DNA of 64,000 nt from contig NZ_JABEKT010000005.1 in assembly GCF_013283195.1 (NCBI RefSeq), forward strand, positions 298,684 to 362,683. The letters are read 5' to 3'. Origin of the DNA: Ensifer adhaerens (GTDB lineage Bacteria; Pseudomonadota; Alphaproteobacteria; Rhizobiales; Rhizobiaceae). The stretch's first letter is position 1. The number at the start of each line of letters is the position of its first letter. This document shows, piece by piece, positions 18,518 through 21,829 of this stretch. Under the pieces are notes generated by a model. The model searched no databases and was not told the DNA's origin. It saw only the letters and a program-made list of their open reading frames with translations. Both the position numbers and the translations under genes were made by a program.

Positions 18518-19291
18518 CTACCGGAACACGGATGTGCGGTAGGACCGGCCGGACCCGTTCTGCGCGATGCGCGCCGTCGGCAGGATCGTCAGCGGCGCGA
18601 ACGGCACCTCCTGGCGGTCCGCGAACATCAGGCGACGCTCGAACGGCTCGGAATCGAAGATCGGGTAGCGGTCGAGGATCGAGGGCCGCTGTCCCCGCAC
18701 TTGCGCGACCAATAGCGCGCCATCGGCGTTATAGACGCCGAGGTTCTCGCGCTTGGCCACAACCGTCTCGGAAGCGAAGATGCGCTTGTAGAATGCCGCA
18801 TGCCTTGGCCGGCAAGCGGTCAGGCATCGATCGGCGCTGAAGTATTCGCACGCCATCGCCACTGGGCGCAGCGTCAGGTAGGGAAGCGCCCGCATCTCGT
18901 CGCCGGTGACGTCAGGATCGACCGCCAGCCGGCCGGGATCGACCAGCACCATGCCGGCATCGAGAAACACATCGATTTCGGGCGCGAAGATCAGTCCCGA
19001 GGTGCTGGCCCTGTGCTGCGGCGTGACGTGATGGACACGCACCGTACTGACAAGATTCTCGTCGAGATAGATACCGAAGACATAGGCATGGCTGTCGAAA
19101 TCGAGATCGTCGATCAGGGTCGAACCCGTCAGCTCCATCAGGTTGACGGCCTTGTAGGCCTTGTAGCGAAGCCGGGCGATATCCTCCATGTCCTCGCCTG
19201 TCTCGACCCGCCGATATTCGACGCGATCGAGAAGAAGCATCAGCTTCTCAGAAAAACTCCCAGGCTCCGCCCGGTGAAGACCTTCACCCAT
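18518..19291 (-). CDS. FeeM-type N-acyl amino acid synthase candidate
   Basis: 257-residue cytoplasmic protein with the GNAT/autoinducer-synthase-like fold seen in FeeM and LuxI relatives: ARLRYKAYKAVNLM near the N-terminus (residues 40-52), then VSTVRVHHVT and the aromatic and arginine-rich middle. FeeM-family enzymes join a fatty acyl chain to an amino acid (e.g. tyrosine). No acyl carrier gene is adjacent. An ATG at 19240 (MLLLDRVEYRR) is an alternative start and would leave more room to the CtrA boxes upstream. Three perfect TTAA-N7-TTAAC boxes precede the gene. Substrate is unknown. Confidence 0.72.
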   Translation of the reverse strand: MGEGLHRAEPGSFSEKLMLLLDRVEYRRVETGEDMEDIARLRYKAYKAVNLMELTGSTLIDDLDFDSHAYVFGIYLDENLVSTVRVHHVTPQHRASTSGLIFAPEIDVFLDAGMVLVDPGRLAVDPDVTGDEMRALPYLTLRPVAMACEYFSADRCLTACRPRHAAFYKRIFASETVVAKRENLGVYNADGALLVAQVRGQRPSILDRYPIFDSEPFERRLMFADRQEVPFAPLTILPTARIAQNGSGRSYRTSVFR

Positions 19292-19307
19292 TTCCCGCCC
19301 CTCATAG

Positions 19308-19323
19308 TTAACAAATCGTTAAC
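19308..19323 (-). promoter_or_regulatory. CtrA box 1 (TTAA-N7-TTAAC)
   Basis: Exact match to the CtrA full-site consensus on the plus strand: TTAA at 19308-19311, seven bases, TTAAC at 19319-19323. It lies 17-32 bases upstream of the FeeM-like ATG at 19291. Confidence 0.75.
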
Positions 19324-19371
19324 CTATTGACGGGCAGCCAGGCAGCAACAACAAAATGGCACAACTTGCCT

Positions 19372-19387
19372 TTAACTTATTGTTAAC
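19372..19387 (-). promoter_or_regulatory. CtrA box 2 (TTAA-N7-TTAAC)
   Basis: Exact match: TTAA at 19372-19375, seven bases, TTAAC at 19383-19387, about 81-96 bases upstream of the FeeM-like gene. Confidence 0.75.
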
Positions 19388-19388
19388 C

Positions 19389-19404
19389 TTAATATTTCGT
19401 TAAC
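19389..19404 (-). promoter_or_regulatory. CtrA box 3 (TTAA-N7-TTAAC)
   Basis: Exact match: TTAA at 19389-19392, seven bases, TTAAC at 19400-19404. It directly abuts box 2, giving a tandem pair on one face of the promoter region of the FeeM-like gene. Confidence 0.75.
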
Positions 19405-19519
19405 TTTTGTGGTTAATTGAACGTCGCAATGGTGGCTGCGTGACGCTGCGCAGGCGGCGGCTCAAGGCCTGGAACGAGAGAGGGGGAAAAGGACAGGACG
19501 AAAGCGCTCAGCGCGCCTG

Positions 19520-21829
19520 TCAGGCGATACGCTTGCTCGTCGGCGCGGCGACCGGTTTCTGGACACCATTCGTGCAGAATGCCTCGATGGCGGAGGCGGG
19601 CATGGGTGCTGCGAACAGAAAACCCTGTATCAGATCGGCGCATTGGTAGTCGTTTATCAGCTGCAGCTGATCCGCCGTCTCGACGCCTTCGACGACGATC
19701 TTCAGGCCCAGAGCACGACCAAGGTTGGCCGTGCCGCGCAGAAGCTTGAAGCGGCGCGAATCCTCACGAATGTTGCGCACGAACGACCGATCGATCTTGA
19801 TGATGTTGACCGGCAGCACGTCGAGATAGCTGAGGCTGGAGTAGCCGGTGCCGAAATCGTCGATGGCGATGGTTATGCCGCTGTCGCGCAGCTCGCCGAG
19901 AATGGCCTGCACTTTCGCCGGCTCATCCATCAGGCAGCTTTCCGTGACCTCAAGATGCAGACGCGAGGCATCGAGGCCGGTCGCCTGAAGCGCGTCTGCC
20001 ACCACGGTGACGATGTCATTGCTGCGCAGATCGAGCACGGAAAGGTTGACCGAAACGGAAACGTGGCTCGGCCAGCTCATGCAGTCTCGGCAAGCCTGCT
20101 CCAGCGCAAAGCGCGTGATCTCCGTGACGAGGCCCAGCTCCTCGGCAAGCTGGATGAAGACGTTCGGCGGCACGGGCCCGCGCTCGGGATGTGTCCAGCG
20201 CGCCAAAGCCTCGCAGCATTCGAGGCGTGCGCCGTTCGGCGTGAACATCGGCTGGTAGGAAAGTGTCAACGCACCGGCATTGATGGCGTCGCGCAGATCG
20301 CTCTTCAGCTTCTGCCGGTCGAGATAACGCGCATCCATCTCGTCTTCGAATACGGTGCAACCACCCTTGTTGCGCGCCTTGGCTTCCGACAGCGCCAGGT
20401 CGGCCTTGATCTGCAGCTCTTCCAGCCGAAAGGCACTACTCGGCACCAGAACGACGCCGGCGCTCATCGTCATGTTGAAGGTGAAGCCACCAGCCAGATA
20501 GGCGCCGCGCAATCCGGCATGGACCGCCCGCATTTCATCTTCGAGATCCGGCGAATGCATCCTGTTGGGGAAGAAGACAACGAACTCGTCGCCCATCAGT
20601 CGGGCGGCGATCGCCGTATTGCCAACCAATGTCTTCAACCGCGCGGCAATCGCCTGCAGCAACCGGTCGCCGACGATGTGGCCGCGCATATCGTTGACAT
20701 GCTTGAACTCGGCGACGTCAAGCACCATCAGGCCGACGTCGACGTCGCCCTTTCCTTCGAGCGCCACGGCGCTGTGGGCAAGTTCGGCAAAGTAGTCGCG
20801 GCTCGGCAGACCGGTCAGCGTGTCGAAGCGAACCATCTGAAGGATCTGCCTGTCGGCCTGCACGCGCGCGGTCACATCCTCGAAAATCAGCACGACCTCG
20901 CCGTTTTCGTGCCGGCCTGCCGAAAACTCGAGAAACAGGTCATTGGTGACCGGCACCAAGACCTGGGTCTTCTTGCCCTTGATCAGCAGGTCGAGCTGCC
21001 GCGAGATCGCGCGCGTCTCTTCGACGCTGAGCGACATGCGGCGCACACCGCGACGCACCACGTCGTCCAGCAACCGATCCCTGAGGTCTGCCTTGTCGCC
21101 GAGCATCAGCAACGCACAGGCACGTTCGTTGGCAACGACGATCCGGTTGTCGCGGTCGAGCATCAGCAGCCCGTGCGTCATGTTGTTGAGCGCGGCATCG
21201 AACTGGCCGGCAATCGTGGCGATCTCGCGGGCGGCCAGCACGTTTTCGTAGAGAAACGCACGCACGTTGTTGGCCATCATCCAGGTCGAGAAGATGAAGG
21301 GCAGGATCAGAACCGCGAGGATCATCATGAAGGGATCCTGCAGCGTGATCAGCCCGATCACGATCGGCAGGCAGGCGGACGAGGACAGAAGCAGCACCGC
21401 GCGTTCGGAACCGTAGTTTCGCCCGACGAGCGAGATCATCGAGGCGAGCGTGACCGAGATGCAGGCGAGCTCCGAGAAGGAATCCTGGCTGACGGCAATC
21501 GCGTAGCCGCAGGCAATGCCGCAGGTGAGCGTCACGCCGACACCGCCGAGAATGTAGCGGTTCTCCCATTTCCGAACCGTCGCCCGGTCGGCGTTGGAGA
21601 AATCCTGCCGATCGAAGCGCGCCATGTCGAGGTTGCGCAAGACCCAGAGCACGACGATGGCTGCAGTGCAGACGAGATAGAGCGGATCGGAGGTCTTGAG
21701 ATAGACGAGCGCGAAAGTCACGACATGCGACAGCATGCCGATCAACAGAGTCCTGCGATGTTCGTAGAGCGAGCTCACAGACGATAGATAGACATCCGTC
21801 GGTAGAGCGCCCCGTTCATTGCGCGTCAT
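19520..21829 (-). CDS. Membrane GGDEF-EAL c-di-GMP protein
   Basis: 769 residues: about six membrane segments (residues 30-190), a PAS-like sensor region (about 205-320), a GGDEF domain (about 335-490) and a C-terminal EAL domain (about 510-750). The GGDEF signature reads R-L-M-G-D-E-F with Met412 in place of the first Gly, so cyclase activity is uncertain. The EAL motif is intact at 540-542, and DDFGTGYSSLSYL and the KIDRSF loop are present, so phosphodiesterase activity is likely. It controls c-di-GMP levels, usually motility or exopolysaccharide in rhizobia. It is divergent from the next gene. Confidence 0.93.
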   Translation of the reverse strand: MTRNERGALPTDVYLSSVSSLYEHRRTLLIGMLSHVVTFALVYLKTSDPLYLVCTAAIVVLWVLRNLDMARFDRQDFSNADRATVRKWENRYILGGVGVTLTCGIACGYAIAVSQDSFSELACISVTLASMISLVGRNYGSERAVLLLSSSACLPIVIGLITLQDPFMMILAVLILPFIFSTWMMANNVRAFLYENVLAAREIATIAGQFDAALNNMTHGLLMLDRDNRIVVANERACALLMLGDKADLRDRLLDDVVRRGVRRMSLSVEETRAISRQLDLLIKGKKTQVLVPVTNDLFLEFSAGRHENGEVVLIFEDVTARVQADRQILQMVRFDTLTGLPSRDYFAELAHSAVALEGKGDVDVGLMVLDVAEFKHVNDMRGHIVGDRLLQAIAARLKTLVGNTAIAARLMGDEFVVFFPNRMHSPDLEDEMRAVHAGLRGAYLAGGFTFNMTMSAGVVLVPSSAFRLEELQIKADLALSEAKARNKGGCTVFEDEMDARYLDRQKLKSDLRDAINAGALTLSYQPMFTPNGARLECCEALARWTHPERGPVPPNVFIQLAEELGLVTEITRFALEQACRDCMSWPSHVSVSVNLSVLDLRSNDIVTVVADALQATGLDASRLHLEVTESCLMDEPAKVQAILGELRDSGITIAIDDFGTGYSSLSYLDVLPVNIIKIDRSFVRNIREDSRRFKLLRGTANLGRALGLKIVVEGVETADQLQLINDYQCADLIQGFLFAAPMPASAIEAFCTNGVQKPVAAPTSKRIA

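Follow-up and report, generated by a model that had tools for sequence, protein, structure and literature searches.

The FeeM-like gene and its neighbors

We analyzed a 64,000-base stretch of the Ensifer adhaerens genome (the window), in which a FeeM-family acyltransferase gene lies between two genes carried on its own strand. FeeM enzymes are the kind that join fatty acids to amino acids. The genes are as follows, the name of the downstream open reading frame (ORF) being presumptive.

19520-21829, minus strand: PAS-GGDEF-EAL protein gene, upstream neighbor, same strand as the FeeM-like gene
18518-19291, minus strand: FeeM-family acyltransferase gene, 257 amino acids
18045-18269, minus strand: small ORF, presumably CoxIV-like, downstream neighbor

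The product matched the Pfam FeeM profile (PF21926) with 137 bits against a curated cut-off of 27, its predicted structure has the FeeM fold, and its identity to FeeM (2g0b) is 17%. The profile match and the fold of the model bear out the FeeM-like assignment first made from the DNA. FeeM was the only family found in the Pfam scan at E values up to 0.001; the autoinducer-synthase family was not matched, and on this Pfam result we rejected membership among the LuxI acyl-homoserine lactone synthases. No NCBIfam family matched the product at E values up to 1, and a sequence search of solved structures returned no FeeM or LuxI chain. The probable reaction of this acyltransferase is the attachment of an acyl chain to an amino acid or a comparable amine, yielding a membrane lipid or a signal. 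The original prediction had allowed that the gene might start at 19240. We rejected that start in favor of 19291, because translation from 19240 (M18) would drop residue F13, which is invariant in 24 aligned orthologues.

Scanning named genome contigs with the orthologue alignment showed orthologues of 98 to 99% protein identity in Ensifer oleiphilus, E. adhaerens SD006, Ensifer sp. LC163, Sinorhizobium sp. A49, and one "Rhizobiales bacterium." E. adhaerens and S. fredii are both among the carriers of the gene. The gene order GGDEF-EAL, FeeM-like, CoxIV-like ORF was kept in all 80 named loci (L079 to L158), a constancy hinting that c-di-GMP turnover and the FeeM product may be linked.

Three CtrA boxes upstream of the FeeM-like gene

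The gap between the PAS-GGDEF-EAL gene and the FeeM-like gene is 228 bp long and holds three exact matches to the CtrA box TTAA-N7-TTAAC, each lying where the original prediction had placed it.

19308-19323, both strands (minus-strand match 19307-19322): proximal CtrA box, TTAA-N7-TTAAC, 16 to 31 bases before the ATG
19372-19387, plus strand: middle CtrA box, exact TTAA-N7-TTAAC
19389-19404, plus strand: distal CtrA box, exact TTAA-N7-TTAAC
19372-19403, no strand: array of the middle and distal boxes, TTAA-N7-TTAA-N2-TTAA-N7-TTAA

These places are the only matches on either strand of the window, where dinucleotide shuffles of the whole window gave an expectation of 0.03. Local shuffles gave a mean of 0.004 places for the gap itself (19292-19519, 51% GC) and 0.014 for its AT-rich part (19300-19425, 37% GC); of the 20,000 shuffles made from each stretch, none reached two places. 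The claim that three boxes would be improbable by chance even in AT-rich DNA therefore held in both the whole-window and the local shuffles.

CtrA and its motif across the genome

CtrA is the cell-cycle master regulator, and accounts of its regulons usually center on flagella, pili, division, and DNA methylation. The genome searched (7.07 Mb in 20 contigs) encodes CtrA, with 83% identity over 225 of 227 residues to the Caulobacter protein, and it contains one FeeM-family match. The motif TTAA-N7-TTAAC occurs 35 times counted strand-wise, versus 16 times for a reversed control. These matches fall at 24 distinct places, three of which form the FeeM promoter while the others stand at least about 1.1 kb apart. 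With three exact boxes in 97 bp, the FeeM promoter is the densest box cluster of the genome. Among the matches listed for three relatives (G001 to G003), it was again the sole site with at least two places within 200 bp.

We scanned 11 proteins adjoining 11 of the 21 motif places outside the FeeM promoter. They were FtsK, FtsE, RpoD, flagellin, a FliN-domain protein, an OmpR-type response regulator that we take to be Rem, a GGDEF protein, an outer-membrane barrel, a cadherin-like protein, a LigT-type protein, and a kinase that resembles PdhS in part but scores far under the curated cut-off. In Sinorhizobium meliloti, as described in excerpts of PMC3616915, CtrA motifs lie upstream of rpoD, ftsE, ftsK, and flaA. 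This agreement between the two sets of neighbors argues that the motif acts as a CtrA motif here. Another exact box of this genome lies about 100 bp before an ORF that we named GNAT-like by eye (L045:897-1403).

Conservation of the boxes

All 16 genomes of the genus that were searched had a match to the FeeM-like gene. Every one of the 16 had the proximal and middle boxes as TTAA-N7-TTAA, and 4 of them had the distal box. Absence of the boxes upstream of orthologues, which the original prediction had named as its refutation, was therefore not observed, although the distal box was kept in a minority only. An alignment of 21 Ensifer/Sinorhizobium rows (the window plus 20 named loci) showed no change in either TTAA half of the proximal box or of the middle box, whereas only two of the seven spacer columns were invariant in each box and mean conservation over the remainder of the aligned 175 bp was 64%. 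The distal box (TTAA-N7-TTAA) was found in 14 of these rows, and the middle-distal array was exact in 14 of 21. Gene copies that appear broken in frame were seen in two genomes, G006 (L016 and L017) and G220 (L177 and L178).

Beyond the genus, too, most orthologues had a box, in the family as well as in the order. An exact box lay within 350 bp upstream in 60 of 80 named Rhizobiaceae loci (reversed control, 0 of 80), and 25 of the 80 had at least two exact places; allowing one mismatch, the count rose to 73 (control, 20). Across the same 80 loci, exact matches numbered 126 strand-wise in the 28 kb upstream versus 0 in the remaining 762 kb. Another 27 family loci (L018 to L044), a set that overlaps the 80 so that the counts are not additive, gave an exact box in 20 (control, 0) and a box within one mismatch in 22 (control, 11). 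For 100 more distant family homologues (33 to 48% identity), these numbers were 25 (control, 3) and 85 (control, 15); the 12 distant homologues of at least 44% identity had 2 exact boxes, as against 2 for the control. Thus 20 of the 80 named and 75 of the 100 distant loci had no exact box, and 7 and 15, respectively, had none within one mismatch. Boxes were examined at all but 12 of the 142 match places of the family search. Orthologues from other families of the order (n = 20, among 199 genomes) carried an exact box in 14 cases and a box within one mismatch in all 20, with none for the control in either test. A search of 289 genomes drawn from the class with the orthologue alignment found no match except the gene's own genome, and at that sensitivity the gene group looks confined to the order.

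The array of two boxes had a narrower distribution. Within two mismatches, it was found in 21 of 60 other named loci (shuffles, 0.0008), in 29 of 100 distant family loci (shuffles, 0), and in none of 20 loci outside the family, a pattern that identifies it, by sequence comparison, as a feature of the family rather than of the order. Some loci that failed the N7 test, such as L131, have TTAA-N6-TTAA instead. The S. meliloti ctrA promoter has one site with 6-nucleotide spacing, and spacings other than 7 are cited as giving low affinity (both from excerpts of PMC3616915).

Gene loss as a natural control

The FeeM-like gene is dispensable, since it was absent from 13 of 33 Sinorhizobium genomes (present in 20) and from 60 of 199 family genomes. 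The 80 named loci with the gene include none from S. meliloti or S. medicae, which would fit a loss. We examined 12 of the 13 Sinorhizobium genomes without the gene, leaving out G240 (70% complete), by locating pntA and reading about 5 kb upstream of it. In five, the GGDEF-EAL gene adjoined the CoxIV-like gene, FeeM was missing, and the stretch read had no box within one mismatch; the spacing of the two genes was about 215 bp in one of these (L325), as compared with about 1.25 kb in the window. GGDEF-EAL and FeeM were both missing from the other seven (L313 to L319), which had no exact box, the one-mismatch matches all lying more than 3 kb off, past the next genes. Gene-bearing Sinorhizobium genomes read in the same way had exact boxes directly before the gene in two of two cases. 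Because the boxes were absent from the 12 genomes without the gene and present in both genomes with it, boxes and gene come and go together.

Promoter geometry and a proposed model for CtrA control

The gap contains two further conserved elements.

19352-19357, minus strand: candidate -10 element ATTTTG, inferred, 13 bases past the middle box
19324-19330, minus strand: TCAATAG, adjoining the proximal box

In the 21 rows, five of the six ATTTTG columns were at least 95% conserved or nearly so, and all seven TCAATAG columns were at least 95% conserved. The 228-bp gap has no GANTC; it has one GCGAC, at -136, absent from the aligned row of the nearest relative (L079). GCGAC is the SciP half-motif described in PMC4287350, excerpts of which also place activating full CtrA boxes of Caulobacter about 40 bases before the transcription start. 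If ATTTTG is the -10 element, the middle box begins some 40 bases ahead of the start of transcription, like those boxes, and by this analogy is likely activating. A further observation concerns the minus-strand sequence TTTGTTAACTAT at 19304-19315, which overlaps the proximal box and differs by one mismatch from Motif 2 of S. meliloti, TTTGTTAACCAT, for which excerpts of PMC3616915 record that no regulator was found.

Together, these results support the earlier reading of CtrA control over the FeeM-like gene at the level of sequence. We consider it probable that the 228-bp gap is a CtrA-controlled promoter and that CtrA in the Rhizobiales regulates the FeeM-like gene directly, as a conserved part of its regulon. 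Since the boxes form a cluster and are kept across the order, production of the FeeM-like enzyme probably follows the cell cycle. In the model that we propose, phosphorylated CtrA would bind the paired distal and middle boxes, the middle box would lie over the -35 region with the conserved ATTTTG as the -10 element, and high CtrA would activate transcription. The proximal box would lie in the leader, directly before the ribosome-binding site, where high CtrA occupancy would damp the gene, and activation followed by damping could yield a short pulse of expression of an acyltransferase predicted to have the FeeM/LuxI fold.

The arrangement could also be read with CtrA binding mainly as a repressor, in which case the proximal box would cover the start region, TCAATAG would be the -10 element, and expression would come with low CtrA levels. 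Few elements are as conserved as the proximal box, the adjoining TCAATAG is conserved as well, and Caulobacter half-sites over the -10 element accompany repression (excerpts of PMC4287350). However, no -35 element was seen by eye at the usual distance from TCAATAG, and the middle box is equally conserved and sits where activating full boxes lie, so we regard a mainly repressive role as unlikely. Less probable still is that another regulator, for example, the reader of Motif 2 or MucR, reads part of the element, chiefly the proximal box. The resemblance of TTTGTTAACTAT to Motif 2, which is present within one mismatch in 34 of 80 named loci, would fit such a regulator, and MucR peaks often hold CtrA motifs (excerpts of PMC4287350); yet all 21 rows keep both TTAA halves unchanged at N7 spacing, a constraint that Motif 2 by itself would not impose, and Motif 2 is absent from the middle and distal boxes.

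It is very improbable that the boxes act on something besides the FeeM gene, for instance a transcript entering the GGDEF-EAL gene, or that they arose by chance in AT-rich DNA. TTAA is self-complementary, leaving box orientation not firm, and 19300-19425 is only 37% GC. Against this, the five Sinorhizobium loci that keep GGDEF-EAL without a box within one mismatch led us to reject that the boxes belong to that gene, the seven loci without both genes are also without boxes, and a chance AT-rich origin is ruled out by the shuffles and the reversed-pattern controls.

Building on direct CtrA control of the FeeM-like gene, we suggest tentatively, and with somewhat more doubt than belief, that a LuxI/FeeM-type acyl-amino-acid lipid or signal is made once per cell cycle in the Rhizobiales, an old order-wide CtrA branch that would tie a chemical output to division and that was lost in some Sinorhizobium. 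Perhaps the neighboring c-di-GMP enzyme acts jointly.

Significance and relation to known systems

If CtrA does control this gene, acyl-amino-acid chemistry joins the outputs of the alphaproteobacterial cell cycle, and a widespread uncharacterized FeeM-family enzyme gains a testable role and a time of action. Were the product a diffusible signal, cell-cycle state could reach neighbors or the plant host. In the open-access literature, we found no paper joining CtrA with an N-acyl amino acid, AHL-synthase, or GNAT term, and none joining FeeM with the Rhizobiales. The main text of PMC4433202 and that of PMC2877005 have no word beginning with "acyl," though the locus may be listed without comment in a supplementary table. 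By these searches, a FeeM-type target of CtrA is apparently undescribed.

One of the closest known systems is FeeM (2g0b), an N-acyl amino acid synthase from soil DNA. The product here is 17% identical to it and, unlike it, is encoded on a chromosome between GGDEF-EAL and CoxIV-like genes. The LuxI-type synthases LasI (1ro5), RpaI (6wn0), and BjaI (5w8c) differ in that Pfam, at E values up to 0.001, gives FeeM alone for this product. The promoter has TTAA-N7-TTAAC boxes like the CtrA regulon promoters of Caulobacter and S. meliloti, but differs in its three exact boxes within 97 bp and in a FeeM-type target for which we found no published report.
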